DNA from: Candidatus Zixiibacteriota bacterium
GTDB taxonomy: Bacteria; Zixibacteria; MSB-5A5; GN15; FEB-12
Assembly (NCBI GenBank): GCA_019038695.1
Contig: JAHOYZ010000007.1
Coordinates: 62,001-126,000 of the forward strand
DNA length: 64,000 nt
Direction: 5' to 3'
Both the position numbers and the translations under genes were made by a program. Below the pieces are notes generated by a model. It was given only the letters and a program-made list of their open reading frames with translations. It made no database searches and was not told the DNA's origin. Each line of letters opens with the position of its first letter. The first letter of the stretch is position 1. Shown here piece by piece: positions 28,767 to 38,132 of the stretch.

Positions 28767-28884
28767 ATTTCCTCCTTCCAAGCCCTTGAATATACCGTCT
28801 GGCCGCACCAAAACAACATCAAACATTCCTCTGGCGTACAACAATTAGCTTGCGGACCTTTGGTTGTCGATAGTTATTGTCGCC

Positions 28885-31800
28885 GTGGGTAAAACACACT
28901 TATCACTCGGCATTGACATCGGTTCGGTTTCTGTTAAGCTCGTCCTGACAGACCACAATCAGATTGTCCATGAAGTCTACCGTCGTTTTCACGGAAGGCC
29001 ATTTGAAGTGCTGTGTCGACTTCTGCGCGACGATTTTGGTGACCTGGCGGGATCTTCTATAAATCTGGGACTGACTGGCATTGGTGGCAAGACCGCTCAG
29101 TCCTTGTTGGGCGGCACTTTCTATGGTGAGATAGCCAGTTTAGCCCGAGGGAACCAGTCACTCGCTCCACAGGTGAGAACCGTGATTGAGATGGGTGGTG
29201 AGGATTCCAAACTACTTCTTCTCGATGGACGTACAGGGACGGTTGAAGACTTCGCTATGAACGCCCAGTGTGCTGCCGGGACAGGCTCATTTCTGGACCA
29301 GCAGGCAGGACGGCTTTGCATCTCCATTGAAGATGAGTTTGGACAGCTGGCGCTGAAATCCAAAAACCCACCCCGTATCGCCGGTCGCTGTTCAGTGTTC
29401 GCCAAGTCAGACATGATCCATCTACAACAGGTTGCCACCCCGGACTTCGACATTGTTGCGGGGCTTTGCTTTGCGGTCGCCAGAAATTTCAAAAGCTCGA
29501 TTGCACGGGGCAAAACTCTTAGCGAACCGATTGCCTTCGAGGGCGGCGTGGCAGCCAACCCCGGGATGATACGAGCTTTCACCGAAGTTCTGGGCCTGCC
29601 ACCGGGTGAACTTATCATTCCTGAACATTTCAACGTTATTGGTGCAGCTGGAGCGGCCCTCCTGGCTGCTGACGACGAAAGAGCTAAGTGCAGCCTCGAT
29701 ACTGACGATCTGGAGCGTTATCTCAATCATCGTACGGTAACACCGTCAGGACGAGCGAGACTTTCTTTCGACTTCCCCGACAACAAGCACTATGGTATAA
29801 CCCAGGCCCAACGCCCCTTAGTAGCTGATGGCCTTGATGTTTTTCTCGGTCTGGACGTCGGCTCACTTTCAACCAATCTGGTTTTGATCGACCGTGATCA
29901 TCGCGTGATCGCTCGGCGCTACCTAATGACCGAGGGAAGACCTATCGACGCTGTGCGACGCGGCCTGAAGGAAATCGGCGGTGAAATCGGAGCGCGCGTA
30001 AATGTCCGTGCGGTAGGAACTACTGGTTCCGGTCGCTATTTAACAGGAGACTTCGTCGGCGCTGATATCGTCCGCAATGAAATCACTGCTCAGGCAACTG
30101 CAGCAGTCAGCATTGATCCAACCGTGGATACCATCTTCGAGATAGGCGGTCAGGATTCCAAGTACGTTGCCATCGAAGATCGTGCCGTTGTCGATTTTGA
30201 GATGAATAAAGCATGTGCGGCAGGTACCGGCTCGTTTCTTCAGGAACAGGCAGAGAAGCTCAGTATCAACATCGAAAAGGAGTTTGGCGAACGTGCCCTG
30301 AAGGCTGGTTGCCCGGTAGGATGCGGTGAACGCTGCACCGTTTTCATGGAGTCAGACCTGGTTGCCCACCAGCGCAGTGGCGCCAGTAAAGATGACATAC
30401 TGGCCGGACTGGCATACTCAATCGCTTCCAACTACCTGACCAAGGTTGTCGGAGATCGTCGCATCGGCGATCATATCTTCTTTCAGGGGGGTGTGGCATG
30501 GAATAAAGCAGTCGTGGCCGCCTTCGAAAAACTGACCCGAAAGAAAATCACCGTTCCGCCTCATCACGACGTAACCGGTGCCATCGGGGCCGCGATTCTG
30601 GCCATGGAGAAAGATACCGAACCGAACTTCGCCACCAACTTCAAGGGCTTCGATCTATACCGACACAAGTATGAAGTTGATTCCTTTACCTGTGAAGATT
30701 GCTCTAACCAGTGCGAGATTCATACTGTGACGGTCGGCGGAGAGAAACCTCTTTACTACGGCTCCCGGTGTGAAAAATACGACGTACAAAAGAAAAATGA
30801 CCGGGAGCTACCGCCCAACTATGCCGGCTTGCGCCAAAAACTACTGTTTGCGAAATACGAACGCGGCACAAAGCCCCGGAAAAAGCGTGGTCGGGTGGGA
30901 CTGCCGATTGTCTTGCAGTTTTATGACTATTATCCCTTCTGGCGTGCCTTCTTTGAGTCTCTCGGATTTCAGGTCGTCAACTCTGGAAGGTCCAGTTCGC
31001 GCGTTGTAGAGGATGCCCTGGAACTTTTCTCAGCCGAGACTTGCTTTCCTATCAAGCTCGTCTATGGCCATGTTGCCCGATTGATCAGAAAAAAGGTCGA
31101 TTTCATCTTCCTGCCGTCCTTGATAAGGGTGGCCAATGAAACTGAAACAGATGAGCGAGGTTCTTTCATTTGCCCCTACGTTCAGAGCATCGGTTCTGCA
31201 GTACGAACACAGTTTGATTTCGACGCAACCGGTATCAAGCTAATTAATTCAGCAATTTCACTCAGTGCCAACCCTGACGGTCTTTATCGCAAACTGAAGA
31301 ATCTGGCGACAGACTTCAGGCTTTCCGATCGTGAGTTCAGACAAGCCGTGGATGCCGGTTCCCGAGCGTACGGTTCGTTCCGCAAGAGAATGCGCGATGT
31401 GGGACAGCAAATTCTTGGCGATCTGAAGCCTGACGAAAAGGCGCTGGTCGTAACAAGCCGACCGTACAACGGTTCGGACAAGCGATTGTCGCTGGAGATT
31501 CCTGAGAAGATACGGAACCTCGGTTTCAAAGCAATCCCTCTCGACTTTCTTCCCCTGGAAGAGGCCGAGATCGACTATCCGTTCATGTACTGGCGCTATG
31601 GACGTCGACTGTTGAGCGCCGCTGATTATATCAGGAAACACCCCCAACTGTTTGCCGTTCTGATTACATCCTTTGGATGTGGACCTGACTCGTTTATTAC
31701 CCATTTCTTCCGCAAGCAGATGGCTGGCAAACCTTATGTGCAACTGGAACTCGACGAGCACTCCGCCGATGCCGGGCTGGTGACCCGCTGTGAAGCCTTC

Positions 31801-33090
31801 ATTGACTCACTGCGTTTCTATAAGTTCCGTCTGCCGGTAACGAGTTTCAGTATCCGTCATGACGATTTCAAACCGTTTGAGAAGACAATCTATATCCCCA
31901 ATATGTGTGACCATGCCTACGTCCTGGCGGCAGGTTTCCAACGCTTCGGGCTGACCGCAGAAGTACTGGATGAGCCGGATGATCTGACTCTGGATTACGG
32001 TAAGAAATTTACGACCGGCAAGGAGTGCTTCCCGTGCGTAATCACTACCGGGGATATGATCAAGAAAATCCGATCCGATAATTTTGATCATAAGCGTTCG
32101 GTCTTTTTTATGCCGGGGGCAGATGGCCCCTGTCGGTTCGGGTTGTATCGTCAGTTCCACAGAATTGTGCTTGATGATCTCGGCTATTCGGATATTCCAA
32201 TCTTCTCCCCCAACTCAAATGACGGTTATGCCGGTTTCGGTCTGGATGGAACTGAGTTCCGCAAGATAACCTGGCGTGGGTTCGTATTCCTGGATTGTCT
32301 GACCAAAATGCTTCATCAGGTTCGTCCGAGGGAGATACAGACCGGCACTGCCGAACAGTTATATTACAGCTCCATTCAAAGGCTGGGACTCGCCATAAAG
32401 AACGACGAATCGCTGGCTGATCTGGCTTCAGAGGTCGCTGGTGAATTCGCCATGATAGAGCTGTCAGACGAGTGTCACCCTCTGGTTGGTGTCGTTGGAG
32501 AGATTTTCCTACGCAATAATCGATTCTCTAACAACCACCTAATTGAGAAACTTGAGAAGCTGGGGCTAATGATCCGGCTCGCAACTTTCACCGAATGGCC
32601 TCTGTATACCTCGTACACTTTTCGTCGCGACTCAGTAATCAACCGGGACCTGAAAGGGGTACTCAAAAGCAACATTCAGATCCTGTCGCAACAGTACATG
32701 GAACACCGGATGATGGCCGCCTTCGGGCGACATTTTGATCTGACCGAAGATGCCCCGGTCGGGAGCGTCTTGCGTCTGGCCTCCAGGTATCTCCCTCTGG
32801 ATGTCAAGGGGGAGGCAATCCTGTCGGTCGGGAAAGCTATCGAAATGGTTCAGTCGGGAGCCTCGGGGATCGTCAACGCTATGCCGTTTAACTGTATGCC
32901 GGGGACGGTCGTCAGTTCGTTGTCGCGTCAGGTATCCGAAGACATGGGCCGGGTACCCTGGCTGAACATCAGCTATGAAGGGCTACGGGATTCAGGAGAA
33001 GAAACCAGACTTGAGGCTTTTGCCGACCAGGTCCGGGCATTTTCCAGAACACGTTCTGATCAACCAGCCAGCAAGTACGCGATCAAATAG
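28885..33090 (+). CDS. Giant 2-hydroxyacyl-CoA dehydratase activase-like protein
   Basis: A protein of about 1,400 residues. Two BadF/BcrA-type ATPase domains lie in tandem. The first (about residues 1-270) has SLGIDIGSVSVKLVL, CAAGTGSFLDQQ and IAGRCSVFAKSDM. The second (about 315-585) has VFLGLDVGSLSTNLVLID, CAAGTGSFLQEQ and GCGERCTVFMESDL. A Cys cluster (FTCEDCSNQCEI) opens a DUF2229-like region, and the rest resembles dehydratase component B/CoA-activase tails. The Cys after each ATPase loop fits an iron-sulfur centre. In known systems such proteins drive ATP-dependent electron transfer to radical dehydratases. No dehydratase subunits are adjacent. The start is uncertain (TTG 28864 or GTG 28885). 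Confidence 0.88.
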   Translation: MGKTHLSLGIDIGSVSVKLVLTDHNQIVHEVYRRFHGRPFEVLCRLLRDDFGDLAGSSINLGLTGIGGKTAQSLLGGTFYGEIASLARGNQSLAPQVRTVIEMGGEDSKLLLLDGRTGTVEDFAMNAQCAAGTGSFLDQQAGRLCISIEDEFGQLALKSKNPPRIAGRCSVFAKSDMIHLQQVATPDFDIVAGLCFAVARNFKSSIARGKTLSEPIAFEGGVAANPGMIRAFTEVLGLPPGELIIPEHFNVIGAAGAALLAADDERAKCSLDTDDLERYLNHRTVTPSGRARLSFDFPDNKHYGITQAQRPLVADGLDVFLGLDVGSLSTNLVLIDRDHRVIARRYLMTEGRPIDAVRRGLKEIGGEIGARVNVRAVGTTGSGRYLTGDFVGADIVRNEITAQATAAVSIDPTVDTIFEIGGQDSKYVAIEDRAVVDFEMNKACAAGTGSFLQEQAEKLSINIEKEFGERALKAGCPVGCGERCTVFMESDLVAHQRSGASKDDILAGLAYSIASNYLTKVVGDRRIGDHIFFQGGVAWNKAVVAAFEKLTRKKITVPPHHDVTGAIGAAILAMEKDTEPNFATNFKGFDLYRHKYEVDSFTCEDCSNQCEIHTVTVGGEKPLYYGSRCEKYDVQKKNDRELPPNYAGLRQKLLFAKYERGTKPRKKRGRVGLPIVLQFYDYYPFWRAFFESLGFQVVNSGRSSSRVVEDALELFSAETCFPIKLVYGHVARLIRKKVDFIFLPSLIRVANETETDERGSFICPYVQSIGSAVRTQFDFDATGIKLINSAISLSANPDGLYRKLKNLATDFRLSDREFRQAVDAGSRAYGSFRKRMRDVGQQILGDLKPDEKALVVTSRPYNGSDKRLSLEIPEKIRNLGFKAIPLDFLPLEEAEIDYPFMYWRYGRRLLSAADYIRKHPQLFAVLITSFGCGPDSFITHFFRKQMAGKPYVQLELDEHSADAGLVTRCEAFIDSLRFYKFRLPVTSFSIRHDDFKPFEKTIYIPNMCDHAYVLAAGFQRFGLTAEVLDEPDDLTLDYGKKFTTGKECFPCVITTGDMIKKIRSDNFDHKRSVFFMPGADGPCRFGLYRQFHRIVLDDLGYSDIPIFSPNSNDGYAGFGLDGTEFRKITWRGFVFLDCLTKMLHQVRPREIQTGTAEQLYYSSIQRLGLAIKNDESLADLASEVAGEFAMIELSDECHPLVGVVGEIFLRNNRFSNNHLIEKLEKLGLMIRLATFTEWPLYTSYTFRRDSVINRDLKGVLKSNIQILSQQYMEHRMMAAFGRHFDLTEDAPVGSVLRLASRYLPLDVKGEAILSVGKAIEMVQSGASGIVNAMPFNCMPGTVVSSLSRQVSEDMGRVPWLNISYEGLRDSGEETRLEAFADQVRAFSRTRSDQPASKYAIK

Positions 33091-33302: not shown

Positions 33303-33629
33303 ATGAGTAAGGCTATGACGGTTACTGACGATTTGTTTGAGCAGGAAGTTCTAAAAGCTGATAAGCTGGTCGTTGTCGATTTTTGGGCTACGTGGTGTGG
33401 ACCTTGTAAGATGATCGCTCCGCTCCTGGACGAGGTGGCCGATGAATACACGGATACCCTAAAAGTCGTCAAGGTTGATGTTGATTCCAATAATGCTACT
33501 GCGGCCAAATATGGAATCATGTCGATTCCGGCCCTGCTTTTCTTCAAGAACGGTGAGGAAATCGACCGTGTCATCGGCGCCATTCCGAAAGCACAGTTGG
33601 TCTCCAAACTGGAGAAAGCCATCGGCTAG
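33303..33629 (+). CDS. trxA: Thioredoxin
   Basis: A 108-residue cytosolic thioredoxin. The redox site WCGPC is in FWATWCGPCKMIAPLLDEVA (about residues 28-47), and the cis-Pro segment GIMSIPALLFF and C-terminal GAIPKAQLVSKLEKAI are normal. The ATG at 33303 follows GGAGGATAGC, so the upstream frame from 33240 is not used. It reduces protein disulfides with electrons from thioredoxin reductase, which is not in the window. A small Cys-containing membrane ORF follows by 47 bases. Confidence 0.95.
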   Translation: MSKAMTVTDDLFEQEVLKADKLVVVDFWATWCGPCKMIAPLLDEVADEYTDTLKVVKVDVDSNNATAAKYGIMSIPALLFFKNGEEIDRVIGAIPKAQLVSKLEKAIG

Positions 33630-33676: not shown

Positions 33677-33844
33677 ATGACCTGGATAGACCTGATAATG
33701 GCGGTAATCCTTGGTGGAGCCGCACTGATGCTGGTTACCAAAGTGCTGGGCAAAGCAGGCTTCGGGTGAAATCACGGCAACCCTGATCTTCCGGTGGAGG
33801 ATGATAAATGCGGGTCTTGCTCGGAGAACGGATCGGACAAATAG
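33677..33844 (+). CDS. Tiny membrane protein with in-frame TGA and CGSC tail (candidate selenoprotein or two-part ORF)
   Basis: From ATG 33677 the frame gives 30 residues, mostly one membrane helix (MTWIDLIMAVILGGAALML...), then TGA at 33767-33769. The same frame stays open for 24 more codons to TAG at 33842, encoding a Pro/acidic linker and CGSCSENG. A single-span helix plus a short CxxC tail is the layout of small Cys-rich membrane proteins. The TGA could be selenocysteine, the real stop, or a nonsense change. TGA ends other genes here, so the code is standard. It lies between trxA and a rhomboid gene. I recognise no named family. Confidence 0.4.
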
Positions 33845-33914: not shown

Positions 33915-34742
33915 ATGAATCCTTTCGAAGGCAAAAAGTCAGGTTTGGGCGGTTTTCGCATCGGTCCGGGGATGATCTCCCCATTTATCAAGGCGATGCT
34001 GGTCGCCAATGTGGCGATGTTTCTGCTTCAGGCAGTGTATCCCCAAGTGACCAGAGTGCTGGGTCTAATCCCGGCTGAGTTCTTTGGTGATTTTCCCAAT
34101 AAGATTTATCAGCCCTTCACCTACATGTTTTTGCATGGTGGCTTCTGGCACCTCTTCTTCAACATGTTTGTGCTCTGGATGTTTGGAACTGAGATAGAGT
34201 TGACCTGGAGAAGCCGTACGTTTGGCCGATTCTACTTGCTGGCCGGACTGGCCGGTGCGGTATTAACATTGATCGTTAGTTCATCCCAGATGGTTCCCGT
34301 AGTCGGGGCTTCGGCAGCTATCTATGGCGTGCTCATAGCATACTGGCTGATGTTTCCTGAACGAAAACTCTACATCTACTTCCTTTTTCCAGTCAAGGTA
34401 AAATGGGCTATTCCGGCCATCATGTTATTGGGTTTTCTTGCCGGGGGAGGCAATATCGCACATATGGCCCACCTCGGGGGAGCAGTTTTCGCATTCGTCT
34501 ACCTTAAAACTGACTGGCGTCCGAGATTGATCTCTGGCTTTTTTCGCAATTTTCGGCGTCGGCGGCAGGAATCGAAACAGCAGAAAAACCGCCAGAAGGC
34601 TGAGAATATCATGAAACGTGTTGATGATGTGCTGGATAAGATCAATGAGGTGGGAATCGAAAATATCAGTGCTGCTGAGAGAAAACTGTTGGAAGAAGCA
34701 TCGTTGCATCTTTCCGAAGAAAATTCGGCAGAGGACAGGTAA
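33915..34742 (+). CDS. Rhomboid family intramembrane serine protease
   Basis: A 275-residue protein with six or so membrane spans that cleaves proteins within the membrane. The family pattern YMFLHGGFWHLFFNMFVLW, the catalytic serine in VVGASAAIYGVL (Gly-x-Ser with Ala in place of the usual following Gly), and the catalytic His in IAHMAHLGGAVFAF are all present. A basic and then helical cytosolic tail of about 75 residues follows (RRRRQESKQQ, DVLDKINEVG). It is five bases from the next gene. Confidence 0.9.
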   Translation: MNPFEGKKSGLGGFRIGPGMISPFIKAMLVANVAMFLLQAVYPQVTRVLGLIPAEFFGDFPNKIYQPFTYMFLHGGFWHLFFNMFVLWMFGTEIELTWRSRTFGRFYLLAGLAGAVLTLIVSSSQMVPVVGASAAIYGVLIAYWLMFPERKLYIYFLFPVKVKWAIPAIMLLGFLAGGGNIAHMAHLGGAVFAFVYLKTDWRPRLISGFFRNFRRRRQESKQQKNRQKAENIMKRVDDVLDKINEVGIENISAAERKLLEEASLHLSEENSAEDR

Positions 34743-34747
34743 CACTT

Positions 34748-35956
34748 ATGCATAAAAAAATACTGTTGGCGGAACAATCGGATGCCACCCGTGGTGTTGC
34801 TGAAATGGTATTAAGGCAAAACGGGTTTGAAGTCATATCAGTCAGTACGGGAGAGAAAGCGCTTGAAGTTCTGGAGGTAAGTCGCCCTGACTTGATTATT
34901 GCCGGAGCAGAGATGCCAGGCCATGGAAATCGGAGTCTTCACCAGTGTTTACAGTCCAGCAACAAAACCCGCACTATTCCTCTCATGCTGTTCGCCGACA
35001 GTACCAATTCTGACCTGCCGTATCCAGATGAAATCATAATCCGTCGCCCAGTCGATTCCAAAGACCTCGCCGAGAAAGCGAGAGTTTTCTCCGGTCAGAC
35101 TTCCCCTGAAACGGATTCACCAGCTGGAAATGTTGACCCCCTGGCTCAGTCTGAATTGGATGACGAATTGCTTGACGCAGCTTTGGGACTGGACCAGATT
35201 GATGTTATGGAATCGGAAATTTTAAGCCAGACCAAGGGCGTGCCTATCGGGGAGCACTCTGAGGAAACGGGTGATCCGGACAAGTCCGATCAGAGCGGGC
35301 GCATTGAGTCAATCATAATCACCGAGGATCAGACAGATATCCACCGTCCGAAGACCAAAACATCTCGTGCTCCCAAGTCTTCCTCTACAGGAAAGTTAGA
35401 CATCCTCGAGAATCAGGATCAGTATAGCGTGGGGGACATGAAATCAACTCCGAATAGTCCGCACGCCGATCACGACTACGAGTGGTTCATCAGTGAAATG
35501 CAAAACGATACCCCTGAGCCATCTTCTTCACTTTCGGTGACAAGCATTCCATCGGGGGATGACCACAAGTTGACCTTCGAAGATCCTTCGGAAACGATGG
35601 ACCCAATTACGCCAGTAGAAAGCGGTGTACCCAACAATGCAGCGCAACCCGATGGCGTAAACAAATTTATTAGTGAATTCAGACGTGAAGTTGAGAAATT
35701 CCATTCAGACGAATCAGAATCCCCATCATCGAGTACGACTTCAGTCGAGCAAGAAGATTCTTCAGTCGAAACTGCCTGGGAAGAGACGTTTGAGCAACTG
35801 ACACCATCACAGGTAGAGCTATTCACCCGAAGAATGGCGAAAGACATCGGGGAAAGAATAGCACAGATCATCATTGACAAAATTGATAGTGAAAAATTGA
35901 CCAATCTGATAAAGGACGAAATCCTGAACCGGATCAAATCAACTTCAATGAAATAA
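34748..35956 (+). CDS. Pseudo-receiver protein with long acidic linker
   Basis: A 402-residue soluble protein. Residues 1-115 fold-match a response-regulator receiver (KKILLAEQSDATRGVAEMVL, then NGFEVISVSTGEKALEVL and PDLIIAGAEMPG), but Gly53 stands where the phosphorylated Asp should be, and the acidic pocket and conserved Lys are also altered. It is therefore unlikely to accept phosphate. Residues 120-340 are Ser/Asp/Glu/Pro-rich and probably disordered. The last 50 residues form an amphipathic helix pair (FTRRMAKDIGERIAQIIIDK). It is co-directional with rhomboid (five bases apart). The function is unknown. Confidence 0.65.
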   Translation: MHKKILLAEQSDATRGVAEMVLRQNGFEVISVSTGEKALEVLEVSRPDLIIAGAEMPGHGNRSLHQCLQSSNKTRTIPLMLFADSTNSDLPYPDEIIIRRPVDSKDLAEKARVFSGQTSPETDSPAGNVDPLAQSELDDELLDAALGLDQIDVMESEILSQTKGVPIGEHSEETGDPDKSDQSGRIESIIITEDQTDIHRPKTKTSRAPKSSSTGKLDILENQDQYSVGDMKSTPNSPHADHDYEWFISEMQNDTPEPSSSLSVTSIPSGDDHKLTFEDPSETMDPITPVESGVPNNAAQPDGVNKFISEFRREVEKFHSDESESPSSSTTSVEQEDSSVETAWEETFEQLTPSQVELFTRRMAKDIGERIAQIIIDKIDSEKLTNLIKDEILNRIKSTSMK

Positions 35957-36215: not shown

Positions 36216-38132
36216 ATGAGTATACTCGGGTTTATGCGTAAATTGCGACCTGTCGCAATAGCATTACTTCTTATCGTTTGCTTTACCATAACACAGTCTA
36301 CCGCGCAGATGGATTTTTCTGCCGGTGGTTCTGTTGGGAACGATTTTGACGAGGAGTTTGTCGTCCTCGAGGCAGTTTTCTCTATCTCCTCCGCTTTGCC
36401 CGGAAAGACTTATTCAGCCGCCGCAACGGCTATCATTCTGCCCAAGTGGCATATCAATTCGGCCACACCGCATGAAGACTGGCTGATTCCCGCCAAGCTG
36501 GAGATCGACAGCCTCCCGAACCTGACCCCTCACAGCATAGTCTATCCTGCCGGTCATGAGTTTGATTTGGCCGGGTCAATAATGTCAACGTATAGCAACA
36601 AGGTCATCATTCCGTTTTCTGTTACACTGGCACCAGATCTTGCTGACGGAGAGTACGACCTGCCGATCCGTTTTGCTTACCAACCATGCAACGACAAGCA
36701 GTGTCTCGCCCCACAGACGGTAGAGGCCACACTGCATATCGTTATCGGTGAGGAAGGTAGACCGACTCATGAAGATATCTTTGCAACTGCGGTAGATGTT
36801 CCCGAGACTGATGGTGCAACTACTTCTGGCCCGGTAGAGGAAAACCAGATACAGCGTCTTATTGATGATTATGGAGCCTGGGGATACGTCATCGCCCTCG
36901 GTCTGGCATTTCTCACTGGACTGCTACTTTCGTTCTCGCCGTGTACATACCCGATGATCCCAATTACCGTCAGCGTATTCGCAGGGCAGAGTAGAAGTGT
37001 CTGGCGCGGGTTTATGTTGTCTCTGGTCTATGTGGGATCAATGGCATTCGTATACGGGATCATGGGACTGGTTGTATCTCTGGTCGGCGGCGTATTTGGA
37101 GCCTGGCTGGCCAGTACACCAGTGGTGATCGGCATCGCAATCATCTTTATTGTTTTCGCTCTCTCAATGTTTGGACTGTTTGAACTGCAAGTGCCATCAG
37201 CACTTCGCCAGATGATGGGGACAAAGACAAAGGAAACCGGGATCGGCAGTTCAATCTTGCTGGGTATTGTAGCGGCACTGGTTGTATCACCGTGCGTCGG
37301 TCCGTTTGTGGCTGGGATTCTTCTCTATGTCGCCTTAAGCGGATCGCCAGTTATTGGATTCCTTGTTCTATTTGTTTTTGCCCTCGGCTTAGGAACGCTG
37401 TATGTCCTTGTTGCGACTTTCTCGTCCGCTATCAATAACCTGCCGGGATCGGGCGCATGGATGGAATCGGTCAAGAAGTTTTTCGGATTCATCCTCCTTC
37501 TGATGGCATTGTACTTCCTTCGTACCATAATCTCCCCCACAGTTGCAGCCCTCCTGACCGGTTTGTTACTGGTTAGTTATGGTGTCTTCGGCGGTGGTCT
37601 TGACCGACTGACTTCCGAGGCATCGTTCTTCGTGCGACTCAAGAAATTGCTTGGCCTTCTCGCTCTGCTGGTAGGTTTCTATTTACTGGGGGGAACGATT
37701 ATATCTCAGGGGTTGATTTGGCCTCCGGCTGATGAATGGTTGCCGTCAACCAGCCAATCGGAGAGGGGAGCCAATACAGAGCTTATTCACTGGGAAACTG
37801 ATCTCGACCGGGGACTTGCGAAGGCGGCTACCGAGGGACGACCGGTGCTGGTTGACACGTGGGCAACATGGTGTGCGAACTGTCGTGTTCTTGATAAGAA
37901 GACATTCGGTAATCCTGACGTGGCAACCGCGCTACAACGGTTTGTGGCAATTAAAGTTCAATTGGAAAAAGCCGGGACACCCACGACTTTGAATTTCATG
38001 GAACGATTTAATATGAAGCATTATTCGCTGCCTACGACGCTGCTAATCGGTTCCGATGGTAACGTCAAACGGGTTTTGCAGGGTGTTGTTGATCCCGATG
38101 ACATGATTGCTGAGTTGCGCCAAATCAAGTAA
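36216..38132 (+). CDS. dsbD: Thiol:disulfide interchange protein DsbD
   Basis: A 638-residue inner-membrane reductant conveyor that passes electrons from thioredoxin to periplasmic thiol proteins. It has a signal peptide (to about residue 31), then an N-terminal DsbD-alpha-like domain with the Cys pair in YQPCNDKQCLAP (about residues 152-163). Eight membrane spans follow, with the transmembrane cysteines in LLSFSPCTYPMIP and VVSPCVGPFVAG. The C-terminal thioredoxin-like domain has VDTWATWCANCRVLDKKTF. All three redox pairs are intact. The start could also be the ATG at 36234. trxA lies 3 kb upstream. Confidence 0.93.
   Translation: MSILGFMRKLRPVAIALLLIVCFTITQSTAQMDFSAGGSVGNDFDEEFVVLEAVFSISSALPGKTYSAAATAIILPKWHINSATPHEDWLIPAKLEIDSLPNLTPHSIVYPAGHEFDLAGSIMSTYSNKVIIPFSVTLAPDLADGEYDLPIRFAYQPCNDKQCLAPQTVEATLHIVIGEEGRPTHEDIFATAVDVPETDGATTSGPVEENQIQRLIDDYGAWGYVIALGLAFLTGLLLSFSPCTYPMIPITVSVFAGQSRSVWRGFMLSLVYVGSMAFVYGIMGLVVSLVGGVFGAWLASTPVVIGIAIIFIVFALSMFGLFELQVPSALRQMMGTKTKETGIGSSILLGIVAALVVSPCVGPFVAGILLYVALSGSPVIGFLVLFVFALGLGTLYVLVATFSSAINNLPGSGAWMESVKKFFGFILLLMALYFLRTIISPTVAALLTGLLLVSYGVFGGGLDRLTSEASFFVRLKKLLGLLALLVGFYLLGGTIISQGLIWPPADEWLPSTSQSERGANTELIHWETDLDRGLAKAATEGRPVLVDTWATWCANCRVLDKKTFGNPDVATALQRFVAIKVQLEKAGTPTTLNFMERFNMKHYSLPTTLLIGSDGNVKRVLQGVVDPDDMIAELRQIK

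Follow-up and report, generated by a model that had tools for sequence, protein, structure and literature searches.

A very probable small membrane selenoprotein encoded between thioredoxin and rhomboid protease genes in a Candidatus Zixiibacteriota bacterium

We have identified a small membrane protein gene in a Candidatus Zixiibacteriota bacterium whose internal TGA is very probably a selenocysteine (Sec) codon, and we put the probability that its product is a selenoprotein at roughly 95%. The gene, named selX here, lies in the window, by which we mean the whole 64,000-nucleotide stretch of DNA that was analysed. An initial annotation had noticed an in-frame TGA in a tiny membrane ORF beside trxA, with 24 further codons before a TAG, and had proposed a new small membrane selenoprotein. 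The ORF is as described (33677-33844), and the proposal is borne out by TGA aligning with TGA in relatives, a frame conserved after it, a covarying hairpin at SECIS distance and the presence of selenocysteine machinery. The features of the window on which the argument draws are as follows.

28864-33090, + strand: BadF/BcrAD-type 2-hydroxyacyl-CoA dehydratase activase, often upstream of trxA (Pfam BcrAD_BadFG, 4.5e-76)
33303-33629, + strand: trxA, thioredoxin with WCGPC (Pfam Thioredoxin, 1.4e-35; synteny)
33677-33844, + strand: selX, small membrane selenoprotein gene (predicted), with 30 codons including one transmembrane helix, the Sec codon, a 24-codon acidic tail and a TAG stop
33767-33769, + strand: TGA probably read as selenocysteine (aligned TGA in 63/63 distinct loci and 66/66 genome matches; selABCD present)
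33786-33802, + strand: SECIS hairpin ATCTTCC-GGT-GGAGGAT (enrichment, covariation, folding, covariance model)
33915-34742, + strand: rhomboid intramembrane protease with GxS and HxxxxHxxxN motifs (Pfam Rhomboid, 1.6e-31; synteny)
34748-35956, + strand: response-regulator-like protein, next in the conserved order (weak Response_reg match below the Pfam cut-off; synteny)
36216-38132, + strand: DsbD-like thiol-disulfide transporter, often nearby, in varying orientation (DsbD_TM, 2e-52)

The selX reading frame is MTWIDLIMAVILGGAALMLVTKVLGKAGFG-TGA-NHGNPDLPVEDDKCGSCSENGSDK-TAG, one frame throughout, and with the TGA read through its product is MTWIDLIMAVILGGAALMLVTKVLGKAGFG-U-NHGNPDLPVEDDKCGSCSENGSDK, a protein of 55 residues. 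A first search of 61 related genomes gave about 20 good matches with one internal TGA each, and a profile built from 19 of these located selX across the phylum. A broader profile, built from 56 sequences, was run on 132 sampled genomes of the Candidatus Zixiibacteriota phylum and matched 68, of which 66 (about half of the genomes sampled) carry selX with TGA at the aligned position; the two matches that do not are weak (E about 0.001) and look unrelated. The TGA-bearing matches come from many genera and six families of the phylum. Among 63 distinct selX loci, which belong to related genomes and are not independent but span these genera and families, the aligned codon is always TGA and never TAA or TAG, whereas the terminal stops of the same genes are mixed (TAA 27, TGA 21, TAG 15). 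Past the TGA, none of the 63 loci has a stop in this frame within the first 17 codons, whereas in the +2 frame only 19% reach 15 open codons. Coding conservation is found on both sides of the TGA, although its 3' part overlaps the SECIS hairpin and is partly RNA-driven. The stem encodes an LPxED stretch, whose conservation after the TGA therefore follows at least in part from RNA structure.

The apical loop of the window hairpin, GGT at 33793-33795, starts 23 nt after the TGA. Published bSECIS limits are a loop of 3-9 nt with G in its first two positions, 16-37 nt from the UGA (PMC13188914); under the criteria applied here (16-37 nt after UGA, a loop of 3-9 nt with an early G, and MFE at or below -7.5) the window hairpin qualifies, with spacing 23, loop GGT and -7.5 for a 26-nt segment. 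Of the 63 selX loci, 79% have a hairpin of at least 5 bp with a loop starting 20-24 nt after the TGA; for 8000 control TGA triplets from the same DNA the figure is 4.3%. In most selX loci the loop starts at 22-23 nt. Additionally, in an ungapped alignment of 41 selX loci picked for having the hairpin, covariation reached 0.460, compared with 0.199 in shuffles (0/500 as high) and at most 0.19 with the partner slid, and both-sided changes occurred at seven of eight pairs. Because picking loci with the hairpin favours pairing, the unselected comparison of 79% with 4.3% is the cleaner test. A covariance model, in which the window sequence was included, matched 33767-33814 at 30.4 bits, the next best match in the window scoring 9.4; an Rfam search of the window at the gathering threshold returned nothing. 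Hairpin geometry varies somewhat among families: in family f4 the loop has four nucleotides (AGTT), and in three loci of family f2 (L101, L103, L094) the best hairpin is 37 nt from the TGA rather than at the usual 22-23, on the edge of the published range. The hairpin originally drawn, CACGG with CCGGTG, was rejected, as 33767-33796 folds at -3.5 kcal/mol (z 0.14), no better than shuffled sequence; the conserved hairpin is the one at 33786-33802.

The initial annotation had named as checks the presence of selA, selB, selC and selD, the codon aligned with TGA in relatives (TGA or TGC/TGT) and conservation past it, and all came out in favour of Sec: besides the constant TGA (66/66 genome matches) and the open frame, the full set of genes was found in the window genome. 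There, selA (496 bits) is directly followed by selB on contig 29, and tRNA-Sec is on contig 39 (68 bits; called by ARAGORN as tRNA-SeC, anticodon TCA). The selD gene, on contig 10, itself contains an in-frame TGA, and its mRNA (L121) carries a hairpin, CGCCAAA-GGT-TTTGGCG, 20 nt after that TGA with the same GGT loop as selX. Given this TGA (in an SCAGU motif) and the GGT-loop hairpin, SelD is itself a predicted selenoprotein. Across the phylum, selA scored above cut-off in 116 of the 132 genomes. A few selX carriers, for example G028, G048 and G043, gave no strong tRNA-Sec match, and G043 gave no selA match either; the assemblies may be incomplete, the tRNA-Sec divergent or the search too limited. 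ARAGORN found no tRNA-Sec near the selA of G028, G048, G051 and G053.

Two alternatives to translation of the TGA had been raised at the outset, a true stop and a nonsense change. On the first, translation ends at the TGA as at any stop codon, yielding a membrane peptide of 30 residues, and the frame beyond it is open only by chance. A short transmembrane peptide ending in G-stop is plausible by itself, and the conserved tail overlaps a hairpin that might serve another role. However, this reading must accommodate an internal codon that is TGA in 63/63 loci while the final stops mix all three, a downstream frame that is never closed within 17 codons, and a covarying SECIS-type hairpin at a fixed distance in a genome with selABCD, and we consider it very unlikely. 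A nonsense mutation or sequencing error in the window genome alone has nothing that we found in its favour and is negligible, since 66 genome assemblies from many genera share this TGA.

Cysteine forms of SelX (TGC or TGT at the aligned site) were absent from the 132 phylum genomes. Four genomes of the window's own family, f1, gave no profile match but had a readable trxA-rhomboid junction (G017, G018, G021, G023); the two genes still adjoin there, and no Cys form was found between them. As no Cys homologue was found, the classical Sec/Cys pairing test yields no pair for SelX. It appears that selX either carries Sec or is not found, which would make this a Sec-only family. The authors of deep-Sep have pointed out that selenoproteins without Cys homologues may escape homology filters (PMC12013277). 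A single-protein scan matched Zixiibacteriota records only, apart from one labelled Calditrichaeota (L117); the selX there is identical to that of a genome (G084) placed in the window's own family.

SelX proteins are 47-75 residues long and share a single predicted transmembrane helix, after which basic residues, Pro and Gly precede Sec. An AlphaFold2 model of the 55-residue window protein has one helix (residues 3-28) and a disordered tail, and no Trx-like domain. K/R residues average 0.06 in the first six positions and 2.0 in the 13 residues before Sec. With K/R confined to the C-terminal side of the helix, the positive-inside rule would place the N-terminus outside; thus, the topology should be N-out/C-in, with the Sec tail in the cytoplasm. 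Among 62 proteins, Sec is preceded by T in 31, G in 17, S in 13 and I in 1, and 39 have Cys at position +5. The motif met more often is (T/S/G)-Sec-x4-Cys, and in 13 of the 63 members Sec is not accompanied by any Cys. The window protein is without the +5 Cys and carries instead the CGSC highlighted in the initial annotation, beginning 14 residues after Sec. This tail is indeed present but is peculiar to this genome, and we rejected CGSC as an active motif of the family.

The gene neighbourhood is strongly conserved in part of the phylum. In the window, selX starts 47 nt past the trxA stop, and trxA, selX and the rhomboid gene are all on the + strand. In every locus of f1, f2 and f4, three families of the order, trxA lies upstream of selX and the rhomboid gene downstream, and the response-regulator-like gene comes next in nearly all loci whose contig reaches it. 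Of the two partners suggested, thioredoxin or DsbD, the strictly kept gene order makes TrxA plausible, whereas dsbD is less constant than trxA or the rhomboid gene and in some relatives has the reverse orientation. The other fixed neighbour, the rhomboid protease, had gone unmentioned. In the window its usual GxSG around the catalytic Ser is replaced by GASA, and its C-terminal tail has a weak DUF6576 match. The f2 and f4 loci inspected have a gene for a CoA-binding protein (PF13380) between trxA and selX, and one f13 locus has it close to selX; the f1 gene order, window included, is without it. Positions of such genes relative to the TGA are -549..-108 in L078 (PF13380), -532..-97 in L095 and -881..-458 in L106. 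In L106, from the f13 genome, a 78-residue protein with two CxxC-type motifs and no Pfam match is encoded at -463..-229, between the CoA-binding gene and selX. In family f16 (L107, L109), selX follows two acyl-CoA dehydrogenase genes, and neither trxA nor a rhomboid gene is nearby.

We propose that SelB binds the hairpin and inserts Sec at the selX TGA, a step that is strongly supported by the comparative data. The Sec selenol, paired in most members with a Cys five residues later, would form a membrane-tethered reductase or peroxidase-type redox centre, and TrxA, encoded next to selX, would regenerate it. A cytosol-facing selenol recharged by TrxA is the biochemistry that we favour most, and we give it about an even chance. 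Bacterial rhomboids act in membrane-protein quality control (PMC7232013, PMC7231995), and SelX may share a pathway with the rhomboid encoded beside it, probably one for redox-dependent membrane-protein quality control or repair; we hold this shared pathway tentatively, as a possibility more open to doubt than the redox chemistry. SelX function is inferred here from charge pattern and gene order only.

Two other roles for a selenoprotein deserve weight. SelX could be mainly a substrate or adaptor of the rhomboid, as an N-out/C-in single helix; Sec would then switch cleavage according to redox state and would not be a Trx-recycled enzyme centre. This would fit the constant position of the rhomboid gene downstream of selX in all f1, f2 and f4 loci, and the precedent of eukaryotic SELENOS (VIMP), a single-pass membrane selenoprotein whose partners, the Derlins, are rhomboid pseudoproteases (PMC10607139, PMC12615303). 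However, trxA is equally constant, in f16 selX sits beside acyl-CoA dehydrogenase genes and away from any trxA or rhomboid gene, and trxA and the rhomboid gene stay side by side in the four f1 genomes without recognisable selX, which leaves this role somewhat unlikely. Alternatively, SelX may act at the membrane in the redox metabolism of CoA or acyl-CoA, reducing for instance CoA disulfides or protein-CoA disulfides. The PF13380 gene near selX in f2, f4 and one f13 locus, the acyl-CoA dehydrogenase genes preceding the f16 selX and the BadF-type activase often found upstream all speak for such a role; but the CoA-binding gene is missing from the f1 order, including the window, and SelX is without a catalytic domain, so we judge it improbable.

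In the eukaryotic membrane selenoproteins SELENOS and SELENOK, a GGU motif places Gly before Sec. SelX resembles both in its predicted single transmembrane helix near the N-terminus, its predicted cytosolic tail and, in many members, Sec after Gly. Like SELENOS, it has a possible Sec-Cys pair, as proposed for Sec188 and Cys174 (PMC3628699), and where SELENOS associates with a rhomboid-family protein, selX adjoins a rhomboid gene. In contrast, SelX is much shorter, its Sec lies just past the membrane rather than at the C-terminus, its bacterial SECIS is next to the UGA, and the neighbouring rhomboid has retained its catalytic motifs. Profile searches against Pfam, NCBIfam and PDB yielded nothing significant for the SelX family, SELENOS and SELENOK included, and the likeness is one of analogy, not membership. 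By that analogy, SelX might be a bacterial membrane selenoprotein with a rhomboid-family partner in membrane-protein quality control, parallel to SELENOS-Derlin, with thioredoxin as reductant, in a Sec-only family unseen by the usual Cys/Sec homology searches; taken as a whole, we think this picture unlikely.

Among prokaryotic selenoproteins, a 2026 catalogue of 119 families holds no recognisable SelX entry (PMC13188914). SelX would share with those families Sec insertion by SelA/B/C/D and a bSECIS within published limits, but it is a tiny single-pass membrane protein with Sec-x4-Cys, no Trx-like fold and no Cys form found. The FeoB-associated Cys-rich membrane protein (PF12669) likewise has one transmembrane helix and then a short Cys-containing tail; unlike SelX it has no Sec, there is no feoB neighbour in the selX loci examined, and matches to PF12669 were insignificant and limited to a few members (best E about 0.1). 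As our profile search covered genomes of this phylum, the family could be wider than the phylum or named elsewhere.

These findings would add a phylum-wide bacterial selenoprotein family whose gene is truncated by gene callers and to which Cys-homology methods are blind. Sec is apparently the sole never-changing reactive residue in SelX, making the family a good case of a role that cysteine does not fill. Additionally, because selX is fixed between thioredoxin and rhomboid genes, a redox link to intramembrane proteolysis is directly testable.
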